Shown: piece after piece, positions 5,822-24,551 of the stretch | How positions within the stretch are numbered: the stretch's first letter is position 1 | Layout: every line of letters begins with the position of its first letter | DNA from: an uncultured bacterium | Lineage (GTDB): Bacteria > Bacillota_I > Bacilli_A > RF39 > UBA660 | Reading direction: 5' to 3' | Length of the DNA stretch: 33,658 nt | Assembly (NCBI GenBank): GCA_946643435.1 | Contig: CAMPCD010000010.1 | Location: forward strand, 1-33,658 | Translations under genes and position numbers: made by a program | Notes under the pieces: generated by a model | What the model was told of the DNA's origin: nothing | Database searches by the model: none | Seen by the model: the letters and a program-made list of their open reading frames with translations, nothing else

Positions 5822-6157
5822 ATGGAAAAAATGGAAATTCAAACATTAATACAATATGGCATTATTGCATTAGTATTAATAATAATATCAATGATAATTT
5901 TAAAATTATCTAAGAAAGACTTTGGTCTAGAAATCAATAAACTAGTTAAGTATCTAGGAGGTAAAGATAACATACTTGATGCTGAAGCTAATATGTCAAG
6001 ATTTAAAGTAACACTTAAAGATGTAACTAAAGTCGATAAAGAAGGAATACAAAAGCTTGGAGCTAAAGGTATTGTAGAAGTAGACAATCAAATAAAAATA
6101 ATATTTGGTAATGATTCTAGAGCATTAAAAAGATATGCTGAAGAAATAAAAAAATAG
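5822..6157 (+). CDS. Single-TM protein with PTS EIIB (glucose-family)-like domain lacking the active-site Cys
   Basis: LGGKDNILDAEANMSRFKVTLKDVTKVDKEGIQKLGAKGIVEVDNQIKIIFG resembles EIIB-Glc LGGKENI..DACITRLRV...; Cys replaced by Asn. Confidence 0.8.
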   Translation: MEKMEIQTLIQYGIIALVLIIISMIILKLSKKDFGLEINKLVKYLGGKDNILDAEANMSRFKVTLKDVTKVDKEGIQKLGAKGIVEVDNQIKIIFGNDSRALKRYAEEIKK

Positions 6158-6180
6158 TAGTTCTCACTACTATTTTTATT
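6151..6180. terminator. Bidirectional terminator between convergent genes
   Basis: AAAATAGTAG-TTCTCA-CTACTATTTTTATTTT; T-tracts on both strands; overlaps TAG stop at 6155-6157. Confidence 0.85.
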
Positions 6181-6185
6181 TTGTA

Positions 6186-7346
6186 TTAATGTTTAAATCC
6201 TTTTTTAGATTCTTGAACACTAGATTCTAGTTCTTTATAACTTTCCTCTTTTTCTTTTTTAGTCTTTCTAAAATCTTCAACTCTCATAACATATAGGTAA
6301 CCTATTCTATCAGTAAGTATATAGAATACCGCTTCTTGATTAGGTCTTTCTTCATGATATAAGATTGGTTTATTTAAAGCATCTCTAATATCTAGTAAAT
6401 CTTCAAACTTTTTAATTACTTCAATTCTTAATGAACGAGTAACCATCATATCTTCTACTCTTTCAGTTATTATTGTTTCAGATATGTATCTATTATAATC
6501 TTTTAATATCTTATCTAGTTTTCTAGCATATTTAACTTCTGGAGTTCTATTTGCTACTACCCAGTAAATAACATATCCAATACCAAATAAATCAACTACT
6601 GATATTAATACTACTAGGACAAGCAAGAATTTATTCTTTAATATTGTTTCACTACTTTGTAGTGTTTGATCAACTGAGTTAGATAAGTTGTAATCCATTT
6701 CAATATCAACAGTCTTCTCAGTTAATGGAATATTTAAACTAATTACTTCTTTATCACTTAATTGTCTATCAAAGTCTGAATGTTTACCTTGAACATCAAC
6801 TATTAATGATACAGTTAATTTAGAATTAGCTGTTAATTTGTATTTATCAATAAATTCAGTAGCAATTGAATTAAACTTAGTATAATCAATATCTACATCT
6901 TCATGAATTCTAAATAAGTCTCCATCAGCATTTGCTGATTTTCTCTTAACTAAATAATCTTCTTTAGTATAGATGTTATTACCTTGAGTGTCATTTACTT
7001 CTACTTTAGCTATTACATAATAAGAATATTTTAAATCTAAGTTATCATCTACTTTGAAAGTATAATCAAAGTCAGTATCAATATTCTTGATTAATGAAGC
7101 AATGTATTTCTTATTCTTACCTAAGTATTTTTCAGAATAGAAACTATTTTCTTTTAAATATACTTTATAATCAATATTTGATTTTTCAGAGTAATGTACT
7201 TTATATGTTTTCTTAAAAGTAAAAGCAAAAGAAGCTATAAGTATTAGTAATAATAGTACAATTATTCCGATACCAACAGATAATGGTATATACTTCTCTT
7301 TAGGTTTACCCTTAAGTAAAGGAAGCTCAACATTACGCTCTCTCAT
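6186..7346 (-). CDS. DUF5305-like two-TM membrane protein
   Basis: N-terminal TM, about 200-aa ectodomain, second TM, cytoplasmic domain; next to S26B signal peptidase. Start reassigned to ATG 7346 (MRERNVEL...) with SD AAAGGGTG. Confidence 0.65.
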   Translation of the reverse strand: MRERNVELPLLKGKPKEKYIPLSVGIGIIVLLLLILIASFAFTFKKTYKVHYSEKSNIDYKVYLKENSFYSEKYLGKNKKYIASLIKNIDTDFDYTFKVDDNLDLKYSYYVIAKVEVNDTQGNNIYTKEDYLVKRKSANADGDLFRIHEDVDIDYTKFNSIATEFIDKYKLTANSKLTVSLIVDVQGKHSDFDRQLSDKEVISLNIPLTEKTVDIEMDYNLSNSVDQTLQSSETILKNKFLLVLVVLISVVDLFGIGYVIYWVVANRTPEVKYARKLDKILKDYNRYISETIITERVEDMMVTRSLRIEVIKKFEDLLDIRDALNKPILYHEERPNQEAVFYILTDRIGYLYVMRVEDFRKTKKEKEESYKELESSVQESKKGFKH

Positions 7347-7359
7347 ACAAACACCCTTT

Positions 7360-8493
7360 CTAGTAATTCTCGTTAATCCATACACTTGGCCATGCGATAT
7401 ATCTTATTCGTTTTTCCACACGACCGACTATCATATTACTTTCTACAATCCAGTTATCAACTGAACTGTTAGCATCTCCTTTAGTCATGTATACATATTC
7501 TTCACCTAGGAAGAACTTCTTATTGATTCTATGAACTATTAATGTATTATCTATTTTAAATACAATAATATCTCCTTCGTGTAATAATTCACCTTTATAC
7601 TTTTGATAAATTATTGCATCACCTTTTTCAATGGTTCCTGACATGGAACCAGATCCAACGGCTATCATAGAATATTTAAATTCTCTTGATACCAATCCAG
7701 CTAATATTGTAAAAATGATAAGTAATATAGCAGTTTCTACTCTATCCCACCATCTTTTACGTACATCTTTAGCTTTTGGTATATCTCTTTCTTTTCTTGT
7801 ACCATCTACAAACTTATATAGTATAAATGGTAATATCATGAACATACATGCTTGAATAAGCATATTTGCCTTTGGTACTATTGGTAAAAAGTACACATAT
7901 AAATCAATTATTAGTCTATATATATAACATGGTATATAACCATATTTATTAGTTAACCACATTAAGAATACATTTTTTGTTAAACTTGCACAAAAAGTTA
8001 ACGCAAAGAATTCATATACATTATTAAAACTACTTACATTCAAAACCTTTTTGCTTAAGCTCAAGTCTAATAACACAAAAATAATAAATAGACTTATATA
8101 TATAATTTTTGTTGTTAATTTACTACCTTTAGGTCCAGAACAAGTTATATATCTAACAAATTCAGTTAAAAATACAATAGCAAATACACTAATCCATACA
8201 TTAGGTTTTAAGTATTTATATAGCATATATGAATAGTTTCTCGAAAACTCAGAGAAAGTACCCATAAAATAGAATATAGATATTGTTAAGAATGAACCCA
8301 AAAAGACAATCAATATTGCATTTTCTAGATTTCTTTTATTAGGTCTTCTATATCCATATAATAAATAAGCTAATACTAAATAAATTGCTAATGCTATTAA
8401 AACTATTCTATTATCATATAACTTATTAAAGATATTAATAGATAAGGTGATAATTAGAATAATATTCAATAATATTTTAGAAATATTCTTCAT
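7360..8493 (-). CDS. Signal peptidase I, ER/archaeal type (S26B, SipW-like) with polytopic N-terminal extension
   Basis: GSGSMSGTIEKGDAIIYQKY (catalytic Ser), GDIIVFK, LIVHRI (His in place of Lys), TKGDANSSVDN box. Confidence 0.88.
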   Translation of the reverse strand: MKNISKILLNIILIITLSINIFNKLYDNRIVLIALAIYLVLAYLLYGYRRPNKRNLENAILIVFLGSFLTISIFYFMGTFSEFSRNYSYMLYKYLKPNVWISVFAIVFLTEFVRYITCSGPKGSKLTTKIIYISLFIIFVLLDLSLSKKVLNVSSFNNVYEFFALTFCASLTKNVFLMWLTNKYGYIPCYIYRLIIDLYVYFLPIVPKANMLIQACMFMILPFILYKFVDGTRKERDIPKAKDVRKRWWDRVETAILLIIFTILAGLVSREFKYSMIAVGSGSMSGTIEKGDAIIYQKYKGELLHEGDIIVFKIDNTLIVHRINKKFFLGEEYVYMTKGDANSSVDNWIVESNMIVGRVEKRIRYIAWPSVWINENY

Positions 8494-8533
8494 ATATTAT
8501 CACCTTTCTATATGAATATTTAAATTTTATATA

Positions 8534-9154
8534 TTAAGCAGATAAACCATTTGCAGTCATCATGCAAGTGAAAGTAATAGTCTTTTGAGTTGTTGGAGGA
8601 GTTGTTGTATCATCACCAACATAAGACTTAATCATTGTAACAGTTACATGAGCTTTTCCAGCAGATACTGTTGGAGTAGTTCCTGATTTTTTAGCAATAG
8701 TAGTACCTGTTAATTCATTATTAGAAGTTACAGTTACATGTCCAGTAGTATCAGTAAATGATGTTGTTGCAGTTGCAGGGAAATTAGTTGCATTGTAGTT
8801 TCCTTCAACACATTTCATATCACCTAATTGAGCATCATATTGTGATCCATTTTCAACATCGTATTCAAGTACAGATGTTTCACCAATTGTGTCTAATATT
8901 TGAGTTGTAAAAGTAATTGTCTTACCATCTGAAGAAATACTAGCTGCTGCATTAGTATCACCTGTTACACTGGCATTTGCAGATCCTGTAGCAGAAGCGG
9001 TATGGAACTTAACATTTGATTCAAAGTCAGATGTATTTGCTCCAATATTAATAGTTCCATTTATTACTAATTGAGTTGTTACTGCAGCAAAACCTACTGC
9101 TAATAATAATACTAAAACTACTATTCCTGTTCTTATTCCACTTTTATTGTTCAT
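8534..9154 (-). CDS. TasA/camelysin-like secreted protein with SipW-type signal peptide
   Basis: MNNKSGIRTGIVVLVLLLAVGFAAVTTQLVINGTINIGANTSDFESNVKF..., secreted beta-rich composition, immediately upstream of the S26B peptidase. Confidence 0.65.
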   Translation of the reverse strand: MNNKSGIRTGIVVLVLLLAVGFAAVTTQLVINGTINIGANTSDFESNVKFHTASATGSANASVTGDTNAAASISSDGKTITFTTQILDTIGETSVLEYDVENGSQYDAQLGDMKCVEGNYNATNFPATATTSFTDTTGHVTVTSNNELTGTTIAKKSGTTPTVSAGKAHVTVTMIKSYVGDDTTTPPTTQKTITFTCMMTANGLSA

Positions 9155-10380: not shown

Positions 10381-10406
10381 AAAAAAAGATACATTAACAT
10401 GTATCT
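10381..10406 (-). terminator. Terminator of 10405..12042 gene, overlapping its stop codon
   Basis: AGATACAT-loop-ATGTATCT followed by T7 on minus strand. Confidence 0.88.
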
Positions 10407-12042
10407 AATTTATATTTGCTTGTTTAGTAGTATCTGGATCATGAATTAATACATAGCTAGTATTTTTAGCAGATGAAGTTTTAACAGTATTACCTTGTGC
10501 AGTTTGAGTAGTCTTAACAGTATTACCATTATTTGATTCAGATGTATTTACTCCACTTGTTCTATCATCATTAAGCTTACTAGCATCTACATCACTATTT
10601 CTATTTTCGTTCAATGTTCCTGCATCTACATCATTTTGATTAGGTGTTATTCCGCCTTTGCCATCTTCTTCACCATATTTCTTTTGAGCATCATCAGATA
10701 CTTCATTTCTTCCTGATGTACCATCTACTGCATTACCGCTTCCTTTAACAGTTTTACAATTTAAACTATTAAATGGATCAAGTAAACAACTTTGACAAGC
10801 ATGTGCTTCTTCGCTTATTACTTGATAATAAGTTAAACCATTTAAGAATGCATTAACAAGTGTTGGAGCAAAGAATATTCCTAATCCAATTACTATTCTA
10901 ATACCTAATGATTTAGCTTGTTCTGATAATGACTTTTCAGTACCAGCCATTACTACTTTAATAAAATCTATAGTACCAAATATTATTATTATCATAGGTA
11001 TAGCAAATTTAGCTAATACTATAAATACGCCTAATGCCTTTAATGCTCTAACAATATTTTCATCATGGCATATATCTTCTCCTATATGTTCACCATTAAA
11101 AGGATCATCTTGATCTAGAGCATGTAGTATTTTTTCATGTGCCTTTTCATTTTCTTCATTAGCTCTTTCAAGTTCTTTTTCTAAGTCTTCATTTTCACCA
11201 TCTTTTGAAGGATCATAGTCTTTTTTATTTTCAGCAATTTCTGACGATACCATTACTTGTCTTTTACCCTCAGATTTTTCTCTAGTATTAGTAAACTCAG
11301 CGCTATTATTCCAATTATAATCGGCTATCATATAATAAGGACATTTATTTTGTTTAATTAAATCTTTAGCTTCATTTGATAATTTAGGATTGCCAAAATG
11401 GTCATGAGTCCAAAAACCTTGATCAACACCTTTAAATTGGGTTACATAAGCAGCAACTGTTCCATCATCATAGATTTTCAAATATCCAGAAGAAGTACCA
11501 AATTTACCAACTTCATCTGTTGATGTCTTATATGCGCATGTTTTAACAGCTTCATCGTCATTTTGAATATCTTTGTCATCACCTTTACCAGAATCTGTTT
11601 TTTCGTTGTATGCATCTCCATTTGTTTTTTTATCTTCTTTTATAGTAGTTGATACACATATATGTGCTTCTTTTTCATCACTTACGCCAAATTTACCAAT
11701 ATAAGCAGCTAAACTATTATAATCATAACTAGCTCTTAAAGTTGCATTACCAGATGTTTCAACTAATAAATAATAAGGACAAACTTGATTTTTATTTAAG
11801 TAAGTTCCATATGTATTCCAACTTTTATCAGCCCAACCTTGAACTTTTTCATGGTTATTTTGTGACTTTCTGTTCATACTAGTAATAACACCTTTAGCTG
11901 AATTACCATTAATCTCGATAGTTGCAGATGTTCTACCATATGCATCTGATGCATAAACATAATTACATGTTTGTGCACTAACATTAGCAGTTATAAACAT
12001 TGATAAAACCAATACTAATATGTACTTTATTCTTTTATTCAT
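10405..12042 (-). CDS. Secreted/membrane protein with two Cys-containing tandem domains and a C-terminal TrbC/VirB2-like TM module
   Basis: Signal peptide; two copies of TCxY...C-PYY domain; TM segments AIPMIIIIFGTIDFIKVVMAG...IVIGLGIFFAPTLVNAFL; repetitive Asn/Thr/Ser tail. Start reassigned to ATG 12042. Confidence 0.75.
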   Translation of the reverse strand: MNKRIKYILVLVLSMFITANVSAQTCNYVYASDAYGRTSATIEINGNSAKGVITSMNRKSQNNHEKVQGWADKSWNTYGTYLNKNQVCPYYLLVETSGNATLRASYDYNSLAAYIGKFGVSDEKEAHICVSTTIKEDKKTNGDAYNEKTDSGKGDDKDIQNDDEAVKTCAYKTSTDEVGKFGTSSGYLKIYDDGTVAAYVTQFKGVDQGFWTHDHFGNPKLSNEAKDLIKQNKCPYYMIADYNWNNSAEFTNTREKSEGKRQVMVSSEIAENKKDYDPSKDGENEDLEKELERANEENEKAHEKILHALDQDDPFNGEHIGEDICHDENIVRALKALGVFIVLAKFAIPMIIIIFGTIDFIKVVMAGTEKSLSEQAKSLGIRIVIGLGIFFAPTLVNAFLNGLTYYQVISEEAHACQSCLLDPFNSLNCKTVKGSGNAVDGTSGRNEVSDDAQKKYGEEDGKGGITPNQNDVDAGTLNENRNSDVDASKLNDDRTSGVNTSESNNGNTVKTTQTAQGNTVKTSSAKNTSYVLIHDPDTTKQANIN

Positions 12043-12067
12043 ATATATCACCTTTTAATCTATTTTA

Positions 12068-15654: not shown

Positions 15655-15686
15655 ACATAAAAAAATAAACGAATAATCGTTTATTT
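15655..15686 (-). terminator. Terminator of prepilin-like gene, overlapping its stop codon
   Basis: AAATAAACGA-loop-TCGTTTATTT followed by T-tract on minus strand. Confidence 0.85.
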
Positions 15687-16226
15687 TATTGCACATTTTG
15701 TTTCATCAACTATTGTTGCTTTATAATTACCTAATGAATAATACATTTTACAAGCATCACCTAATGTACATTCAGGATTAGCTTTAATTTTTTCATATTC
15801 AAATGATATATGTACAGTACAATCAGGATCTACCTTACATTTATTATTAGCTTCATTGTAATTACAATTTTTATCATAATATCCATGATCTGCTAAGTAT
15901 CTAACATTTACATCCATACCATTTAAAGCTGCATATTCAATAAAAGCATAACCAGATAATTCAGTACCTGTTGATGTGACATAACTAGCAGTTTTAACTA
16001 TCTTATGTCCTGATTCATCATATGTAGTAATCTTATTAGCATGTATTAAATCTTCTGCATACAATTTTGCACCATCAGTTATAGCCTGTTTATCAATATC
16101 TTTTATAGCTTGTTTAGCTGCTCCAAAGGCTCTTTGAAATACTGGTATTAATAATACAACTAATACTCCAGCAAGTGTTATAACAGCTAATACTTCAACT
16201 AAAGTAAAACCTTTATTCTTTTTCAT
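15681..16226 (-). CDS. Type IV prepilin/pseudopilin-like protein, Cys-rich C-terminus
   Basis: MKKNKGFTLVEVLAVITLAGVLVVLLIPVF prepilin motif. ORF start 16256 reassigned to ATG 16226 with SD AAAGGG. Confidence 0.85.
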   Translation of the reverse strand: MKKNKGFTLVEVLAVITLAGVLVVLLIPVFQRAFGAAKQAIKDIDKQAITDGAKLYAEDLIHANKITTYDESGHKIVKTASYVTSTGTELSGYAFIEYAALNGMDVNVRYLADHGYYDKNCNYNEANNKCKVDPDCTVHISFEYEKIKANPECTLGDACKMYYSLGNYKATIVDETKCAIK

Positions 16227-16821
16227 CTTCATCACCCTTTGCATATAAACATCCACAGTAGTTTTGTCTATATAAACAATACTTTTTACATAGTTCTATA
16301 CTACGTTTATATCCTTCTCTTTTCTTAAAATCAGATAATAAATATTCAACACCCATTTGTTCTCCAATAGATGTACCTATTCTATTGATTGTTTCACTAT
16401 CTTTATATGGAGATACTGTTAATGTAGTACAGAAATAATCAAATTTCTTTTCCTTAGCTATCTTTGCTACATATTTCAGTCTAAATCCATAACAGACATG
16501 ACATCTTGCTCCACCTTCTGGTTCTTCTTCTAAACCTTTAGTTATCTCATGGAAATAATCATTTTCATAAGGAGCATCTATATATGGAATACCTAATTTA
16601 TTTAAGAATCCTATTTGTACATTCTTACGATGATCATATTCTTCAAGTGGTTCTATATTAGGATTGTAATATATTACAGTTATATCAAAGAAAGGTTTTA
16701 ATCTTTCTATAACTGATGAAGAACAAGGTCCACAACAAGAATGAAGTAATATACTCTTCTTTTCACCATTAAAGGATTCAATAGTTTTAATCATTACTTT
16801 ATCATAATTAATTTTATCCAT
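16213..16821 (-). CDS. queH: Epoxyqueuosine reductase QueH (DUF208)
   Basis: LLHSCCGPCSS, CHVCYGFRL, YC...YRQNYCGCLYA motifs. Start reassigned to ATG 16821 with SD AGAAGGTG. Confidence 0.93.
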   Translation of the reverse strand: MDKINYDKVMIKTIESFNGEKKSILLHSCCGPCSSSVIERLKPFFDITVIYYNPNIEPLEEYDHRKNVQIGFLNKLGIPYIDAPYENDYFHEITKGLEEEPEGGARCHVCYGFRLKYVAKIAKEKKFDYFCTTLTVSPYKDSETINRIGTSIGEQMGVEYLLSDFKKREGYKRSIELCKKYCLYRQNYCGCLYAKGDEDEKE

Positions 16822-22994: not shown

Positions 22995-23993
22995 TTATTT
23001 CCTCTTCTTACTAACACTTACCTTATAAACATATGCATAGTTATCATATATTACAGTAAATATTGTCTCTTTGTGTTTAATTATTTCTACAAAGTCTATA
23101 GGTACTTTATGTAACTTAGATTGAGCTAATAACTCATCCATAGTATCAACAAATACTACATCTTTATTAGTTAAATTTGGTAAGAAGTTAATCTTAACTA
23201 AAGAATCTTTATATTTCTTCTTAATTGAATTTAATTCTTCATCATTAATTTCTTCTACTGGAGTTATTCTTTCAATTAAATAAGTAATACATAAAATATA
23301 TAAAACAACTGATCCTAAGAATTCACAGCAAATGATTAAATATGTTTTGTCATTCTTGATTTCATTAGAGAATTCTTTATAACTCTTTTCTTCACTTGGA
23401 GTTACAGTTATATATTCACCTGTTGTTATAGGAATATCTATTTCAATCTCTTTAGAATTAGTTACATATTTATCTATTTCTTTATTATATATATGATAAG
23501 TAACAACTAATTCATATTTAATCTTAGCTTTAAAATAATCAGCTATTTCTTTATTATTTTTAATAATATCTTTTAAATTAATATTAGTTAATTGATTAAT
23601 CTTAATAATATTTTTATTATCTAATTCATATTTATAATCTATAGATCTATATATTTCTTTCTTTTCTTCTACATTATCGAATAAAACTCCTCTTACATAA
23701 TATGTATAATCACCTGTTACAGCTTTATCAAATAAAGTTTGATAATTAAAGAATGCATCTATGGATTTAATATTATTAACATCATAGTCTTTTGTATTTT
23801 TAGAATTATAAAAATTATTATCTACTGATTCTATATTATATGTTAATGAGTTTTTTTCATTTATAGTTAATCTAGTAATATCAGTAGTATGTAATCTTAA
23901 GTTATCAAAATATAAATAATAATATAAAGAAATATTAGCTAATATTATTAATATTATTATAAATATAATATAAACTATCCTTCTTTTTTTCAT
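22995..23993 (-). CDS. DUF5305-like two-TM membrane protein (paralog of 6186..7346)
   Basis: Same TM-ectodomain-TM-cytoplasmic layout; tails alignable: FEDLLDIRDALNKPILYHEERPNQEAVFYILTDRIGYLYVMRV vs MDELLAQSKLHKVPIDFVEIIKHKETIFTVIYDNYAYVYKV. Confidence 0.55.
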   Translation of the reverse strand: MKKRRIVYIIFIIILIILANISLYYYLYFDNLRLHTTDITRLTINEKNSLTYNIESVDNNFYNSKNTKDYDVNNIKSIDAFFNYQTLFDKAVTGDYTYYVRGVLFDNVEEKKEIYRSIDYKYELDNKNIIKINQLTNINLKDIIKNNKEIADYFKAKIKYELVVTYHIYNKEIDKYVTNSKEIEIDIPITTGEYITVTPSEEKSYKEFSNEIKNDKTYLIICCEFLGSVVLYILCITYLIERITPVEEINDEELNSIKKKYKDSLVKINFLPNLTNKDVVFVDTMDELLAQSKLHKVPIDFVEIIKHKETIFTVIYDNYAYVYKVSVSKKRK

Positions 23994-24015
23994 AGTATCA
24001 CACAACCCTTATTTA

Positions 24016-24504
24016 TTAAGCTTGAATATAATTAAATATCATATTTACTTTTACTTTATTATATTTCTTTAATATTTCTTTTTGTTCTTCAGTTAAATTA
24101 GATTTGATAATATATTTTACTATTACATGATCCACATCTTTTTTATCTAAAAAGTCAGATCTAGATATTTGGAAATCTAATACTTCTTTTATTTCTTCAG
24201 GGACATCATCTATTAAAAGACTGTATAATTTCATATCTAATGATGAATCATTATGAATAGTAAATTCAAGTGTATATTCTTCTTTTGTTTCTTCCAAAGG
24301 AATAACATATGAAATTGTTGTATCTTCATTATCAAGTATAGTCACATCTTTAGTATATATTCCATCAATATATAATGGAGTTAAATCTATTTGATTAGAG
24401 TTATCAACAGCAAAAGATTTATTAACAGTTAATACTCCTCCACATGTTAAAACTATAGCTACTGCTAACATATATGGGAATAATACTTTCTTTAGTTTCA
24501 TCAT
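24016..24504 (-). CDS. Small secreted protein, possibly TasA/camelysin-like beta-sandwich
   Basis: Signal peptide MKLKKVLFPYMLAVAIVLTCGGVLTVNKSFA; YTLEFTIHNDSSLDMKLYSLLID segment. Confidence 0.6.
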   Translation of the reverse strand: MMKLKKVLFPYMLAVAIVLTCGGVLTVNKSFAVDNSNQIDLTPLYIDGIYTKDVTILDNEDTTISYVIPLEETKEEYTLEFTIHNDSSLDMKLYSLLIDDVPEEIKEVLDFQISRSDFLDKKDVDHVIVKYIIKSNLTEEQKEILKKYNKVKVNMIFNYIQA

Positions 24505-24551
24505 TATCACATCCTACATAATAATTATATAAAATTATAGGATTATAGTAA

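Follow-up and report, generated by a model that had tools for sequence, protein, structure and literature searches.

In Bacillus subtilis, the products of the tapA-sipW-tasA operon build TasA fibres by donor-strand exchange (PMC9674648, PMC10151520), the donor strand being the mature N-terminus of TasA, residues 28-38 (PMC9674648). Even in Bacillus itself TapA is not a conserved protein (PMC10151520), and for its TasA/CalY filaments Bacillus cereus employs a different accessory assembly factor, CapP (PMC13082335). The SipW-dependent secreted protein of the Clostridium perfringens sipW-bsaA operon also makes filaments (PMC7395162), and around the Sulfolobus thread gene neither a chaperone nor an usher could be clearly recognised (PMC9715654). 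The cassette described here lies in a 33,658-nt stretch of DNA (the window), which is contig C10 of a very AT-rich 1.13-Mb draft genome (56 contigs, 79.7% complete), and is a variant of the SipW/TasA kind.

As in B. subtilis (PMC9674648, PMC10151520), a SipW-type peptidase is encoded together with a secreted beta-sandwich subunit, and the N-terminal strand of that subunit would come right after the signal peptide. Unlike tapA-sipW-tasA, however, the cassette lacks a further small secreted gene; the place behind the peptidase is taken instead by a protein of the DUF5305 family, which a PF17231 search did not find in a B. subtilis control genome, and the peptidase carries a multi-transmembrane (TM) N-terminal extension that B. 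subtilis SipW lacks. With C. perfringens the cassette shares a secreted protein that is, here by prediction, SipW-dependent, and one of 60 relatives of our substrate matches the BsaA SipW-dependent family TIGR04090, but the clostridial operon has accessory secreted proteins of its own, which are short, and a two-component system, with no DUF5305 described (PMC7395162). CapP is located in the cell wall and is chaperone-like (PMC13082335), whereas DUF5305 is a predicted two-TM membrane protein.

The three minus-strand genes (Table 1) have the order and strand that the first-pass annotation gave them and look like one operon: each is preceded by a Shine-Dalgarno-like sequence, and the gap between substrate and peptidase genes is ~40 nt. 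The DUF5305 gene of that annotation is confirmed by PF17231, but its listed start is not, as GTG 7385 (open reading frame 6186-7385) falls within the peptidase gene; the true start is most likely ATG 7346, 13 nt past the peptidase stop and downstream of AAAGGGTG, because both the alignment and the Shine-Dalgarno sequence fit it. The hairpin that follows the cassette is probably a two-way terminator shared with the convergent gene; it is missing from the output of a terminator scan for which it is too A/T-rich. The window also holds a second TasA-like/DUF5305 pair (22995-24510) that was absent from the first-pass annotation. Two other proteins in the window may be mentioned for completeness: a 548-aa protein (10405-12051) with a signal-like N-terminus, two further TM segments, a Ser/Thr/Asn-rich tail and no confident family, and an apparently solitary pilin-like protein (15681-16256) with a type IV N-methylation motif (PF07963, 4e-7).

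Table 1. Features of the cassette and of the second pair in the window.
Feature	Position	Strand	Basis
TasA/AbpX-like secreted subunit, 206 aa; SipW-type signal	8534..9154	-	family profile, model and conservation
Long-form S26B (SipW-type) signal peptidase, 377 aa	7360..8493	-	TIGR02228 and invariant Ser/His/Asp motifs
DUF5305 protein, 386 aa from ATG 7346	6186..7346	-	PF17231; start from Shine-Dalgarno sequence and alignment
A/T-rich hairpin, then T run	6150..6177	.	direct reading of sequence
Second, divergent TasA-like secreted protein, 164 aa	24016..24510	-	substrate HMM, E 9e-7
Second DUF5305 protein, 336 aa; orphan pair without peptidase	22995..24005	-	PF17231, 29.0 bits, at cut-off

The peptidase had been called an S26B enzyme of the Ser/His type, and this assignment holds. 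It matches the curated signal peptidase I model TIGR02228 at 70.3 bits (cut-off 51.85) through a catalytic domain at residues 256-369, and because the S283-M284, H321-R322, G339-D340 and D346 motifs are invariant across 33 relatives, it is, judged by sequence, a genuine S26B enzyme of the Ser/His(/Asp) type. It does not belong to the Bacillus SipW equivalog NF046067, against which it scores 50.9 bits (cut-off 190). The N-terminal extension, ~240 aa long and multi-TM, has conserved positions among the same relatives that include G78, E111, R114, P204 and P207, and contains no known domain in Pfam or NCBIfam.

Recurrence of S26B-DUF5305 co-localisation in related genomes had been set beforehand as a test of the cassette, and the association does recur. 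A search of public genomes seeded from the peptidase rather than from DUF5305 yielded 79 loci; DUF5305 is the next gene after 75 of the 79 untruncated long-form peptidase genes, with a median distance of 9 nt (range -38 to +74). Across 78 genomes from the same family, 36 of which contain PF17231 and 75 TIGR02228, DUF5305 follows 39 of 42 S26 matches in 360-410-aa frames as against 1 of 108 other S26 matches, in each case among the matches listed (p = 3e-31, the related genomes not being independent). That the three genes are adjacent by chance, a reading for which we can name nothing beyond the small size of the genome, is extremely improbable in the face of these counts and of an association that recurs in other families and in Halobacteria, and we reject it.

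The substrate belongs to this unit as well. In 69 of 75 loci (92%) the gene immediately before the peptidase is TasA-like, and in 32 of 74 so is the gene immediately after DUF5305, which mostly encodes a protein of 300-1300 aa, compared with a background of 0-10% at a distance of at least four genes; the HMM that defines these genes was built from genes of the same loci, chosen by signal motif and not by distance. Per genome, DUF5305 and TasA-like genes occur together in 31, alone in 5 and 4, respectively, and are both missing from 38 (p = 3e-12), the five being those of the 36 DUF5305 genomes that have no TasA-like match at E 1e-10. It is near certain, then, that a long-form SipW-type peptidase, DUF5305 and TasA-like substrates form a recurrent module.

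Such tight linkage might also be expected if DUF5305 were part of the signal peptidase, as a subunit without catalytic activity that confers specificity for SipW-type signals, in which case the products need not be fibres. The 75/79 adjacency, the median gap of 9 nt and the occurrence of the partner with the long-form peptidase only all suit this idea. We nevertheless think it unlikely: 16 of the 56 DUF5305 matches in the 78 same-family genomes have no adjacent peptidase, several of these peptidase-less copies adjoin a TasA-like or small secreted gene, and short-form SipW enzymes encoded in the same genome appear to work without DUF5305. The second pair in the window shows this too: its DUF5305 gene directly follows the small TasA-like gene, without a peptidase, which ties DUF5305 to the substrate and not just to the peptidase. 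Two other loci (L071 and L083) show a matching order of small secreted gene, DUF5305 and NUDIX, followed by an Ig-like protein. The genome also contains, on contig C2, a SipW cluster without DUF5305 (L012, 6485-17505). In it, three additional S26 genes and several genes for TasA-like secreted proteins accompany an AAA+ protein of 513 aa and companion proteins that are 324 and 368 aa long; a block resembling this cluster stands beside a DUF5305 cassette elsewhere (L054).

The family assignment of the third protein, proposed as DUF5305-like, is borne out by PF17231 (cut-off 29), which scores the cassette copy at 47.2 bits and the second copy at 29.0 in a genome-wide search, while hmmscan of single proteins leaves the cassette copy unreported and gives the second copy 27.4 bits. 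The Pfam entry records no function, and DUF5305 is named in no paper we found, literature coverage being incomplete. The first-pass description of a two-TM protein with a large ectodomain and a conserved cytoplasmic tail holds for 112 of 121 relatives, which have two TM segments, an ectodomain of ~200 aa and a tail of ~105 aa. The mean charges flanking the TM segments (+2.1, +0.7, -1.0, +2.2) favour an N-in/C-in topology. The AlphaFold model (pLDDT 89.1) shows a TM segment, a beta-sandwich with strands that exceed 30 residues, a second TM segment and a small cytoplasmic alpha/beta domain. A sequence search gave no solved relative. Foldseek matches (the TMEM106B lumenal domain, a proteinase inhibitor, ApaG and C5a-peptidase domains) are generic Ig/FN3-like and were not used to assign function, and no homology to the TasA-like domain was found, hhalign aligning the TM segment only, at a probability of 13%.

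The cytoplasmic domain raises the question of whether DUF5305 might be a signalling switch that senses an internal cue, perhaps c-di-GMP in one relative, and gates the peptidase, assembly or release through its ectodomain. This domain is conserved, and response-regulator, STAS and similar signalling genes lie near some haloarchaeal copies. MshEN is a domain that binds c-di-GMP elsewhere, and the regulatory reading stays alive because one copy from Bacilli (L170, 5581-7518) is fused to a C-terminal MshEN domain (E 7e-10). Yet this is the single MshEN fusion seen, most DUF5305 tails have no further recognised domain, and a structural partner would show linkage to peptidase and substrate equally, so we regard a switch as doubtful. 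Another copy (L172, 3489-6188) is fused to DUF285 repeats, an arrangement that would be odd if the tail is cytoplasmic.

The substrate has the properties of the SipW-type secreted protein that had been postulated: a single N-terminal hydrophobic segment and a VGFA/AVTTQL-type processing region, with putative cleavage between A23 and A24 followed by the mature N-terminal strand AVTTQLVINGTINI. A23, L29 and I31 are conserved at 90% or more in the family. Taken alone, the window protein matches neither the camelysin profile PF12389 nor any TasA model, so the search suggested by the first-pass annotation did not place it; only one of its 60 relatives matches PF12389 (E 0.0011). The 60-sequence family profile (A4), on the other hand, finds a solved member of the TasA/AbpA/AbpX donor-strand superfamily, AbpX, the archaeal bundling pilus protein X (9sj2, E 2.4e-4; 9rhp, E 2e-3), in an alignment that spans the G...v.tf...N.Gti.A motif. 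On this profile evidence, its nearest solved relatives are fibre subunits, although, unlike those of AbpA/AbpX, the putative fibre would be bacterial, and identity is low. The AlphaFold model (pLDDT 80.6) places a beta-sandwich behind the signal helix, a fold that may be of the TasA-like kind expected of this gene, and the ten best Foldseek matches include Sulfolobus threads (7pnb), AbpA bundling pili (7ueg) and the TasA fibre (8aur). These three matches are weak (E 0.05-0.18, TM score <0.4), as is the best match to any fibre subunit (E 0.02).

With an alternating-hydrophobic stretch behind the putative A23/A24 site that the model leaves unpaired, and with the donor strand of TasA being its mature N-terminus, donor-strand assembly of the predicted subunit is plausible. 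The observation that the substrate gene is less AT-rich than its neighbours stands (GC 0.335), but the suggestion that it was acquired or is specially expressed does not: the rise is mainly at codon position 2 (0.498), in a Thr/Ala-rich protein that is 20% Thr, and GC3 (0.101) is like that of the neighbouring genes.

The substrate profile reaches well beyond the cassette. It identifies the TasA-like protein of the second pair, which was not in its building set, and makes 18 matches in the genome, most of them in frames of 370-2090 aa scattered outside cassettes. Ten dispersed large proteins (373-1957 aa; contigs C38, C22, C23, C16, C24, C42 and C3, L198-L204) share the N-terminal signal and TasA-like module of the substrate (GFAAVTTNLIING...), with blastp E values of 2e-7 to 4e-18 in a 20-protein set; the module is followed by LRR_5, Listeria-Bacteroides repeat or DUF4832/4874 domains, or by nothing recognised. 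Three relatives (G021, G060 and G067) have 21-40 genes with the module each, several of them confirmed by translation. An LPxTG motif lies near the C-terminus in 3 of 202 TasA-like proteins, without the context of a sorting signal. The peptidase-less TasA-like/DUF5305 pair and the ten scattered large surface proteins with the substrate's N-terminal module are newly seen here. Because so many large proteins begin with this module, the small protein of the cassette may represent the minimal form of subunit in a large class. The same scatter of long frames outside cassettes could mean that the TasA-like domain merely exports large proteins and retains them at the surface, the cassette protein being one member and forming no polymer. 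We consider this improbable: 92% of loci retain a small single-domain subunit immediately before the peptidase, and its closest solved relatives are the AbpX fibre subunits. We regard fibre formation by the TasA/AbpX-like subunits as probable.

DUF5305 is also found in a few other families of Bacilli, beside S26 and secreted genes (L170, L171, L172), and on six haloarchaeal plasmids. On three of these a signal peptidase I gene is adjacent, on a fourth it is one gene off and on a fifth ~4.6 kb away; the sixth has none within the stretch, which the end of the record cuts. Most of the plasmids also encode, near DUF5305, secreted proteins in which a GAF-type signal region recurs. One contig of a Bacilli MAG (G156, C49; L169) with DUF5305 beside S26 has 60% GC and haloarchaeal-type genes; as it is probably a haloarchaeal contaminant, it was left out and the named haloarchaeal plasmids were used instead.

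In the model presented here, the pre-subunit, by its sequence, would be inserted by Sec through its hydrophobic N-terminus. The long-form peptidase, whose enzyme class is established, would be positioned by its multi-TM extension and cut after A23, freeing the alternating-hydrophobic N-terminal strand, which by homology with TasA, AbpA and AbpX would be taken up into the next subunit to complete its beta-sandwich, so that a fibre grows by donor-strand exchange. Beside the peptidase, DUF5305 would take cleaved subunits on its ectodomain and nucleate or hold the base of the fibre, a membrane-bound substitute for TapA whose cytoplasmic domain would couple the assembly to the cell interior; we infer this step from the near-obligate linkage, the topology and the model. 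The large proteins that carry the TasA-like module may be exported likewise and serve as functional heads that are tethered to the fibre or form part of it.

The case for export and for the linkage of the cassette is strong, and the dedicated export module with a DUF5305 partner that was first proposed from this DNA is strongly supported by the co-localisation, the upstream TasA-like gene, the profile similarity to AbpX and the structural model. For the complete reading, in which a SipW-type module is dedicated to exporting and assembling TasA/AbpX-like subunits and DUF5305 is its membrane platform or anchor partner, we see an even chance. The role of platform or anchor is plausible because peptidase and DUF5305 are near-obligate neighbours, also in other families of Bacilli and on haloarchaeal plasmids, because the TasA-like gene lies upstream and co-occurs by genome, because DUF5305 pairs with such a gene even where the peptidase is missing, and because the predicted N-in/C-in topology puts a beta-sandwich outside the cell; the profile match to AbpX and the module shared by the ten large proteins argue for the module as a whole. 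Counting against the complete reading are the failure of the substrate alone to match any TasA/camelysin model and its weak fold matches, the generic Ig-like matches of a DUF5305 protein without a solved relative, the five DUF5305 genomes lacking a TasA-like match, and the MshEN fusion, which suits a regulator at least as well. It is tempting to go further and speculate, tentatively and at clearly less than an even chance, that DUF5305 is the assembly platform of TapA-less donor-strand fibres common to Bacilli and Halobacteria, with the TasA-like domain as a sortase-independent plug-in that mounts large adhesin-like proteins, tens of them in each small genome, on these fibres.

The linkage points to a likely role for DUF5305, a family without an assigned function, and the near-obligate peptidase/DUF5305 pair of Bacilli families and haloarchaea is a concrete candidate for nucleating or anchoring TasA-like fibres where TapA is missing. 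The TasA-like N-terminal module on large proteins, in turn, suggests a route for the display of surface proteins in small-genome, mostly uncultured gut Bacilli.
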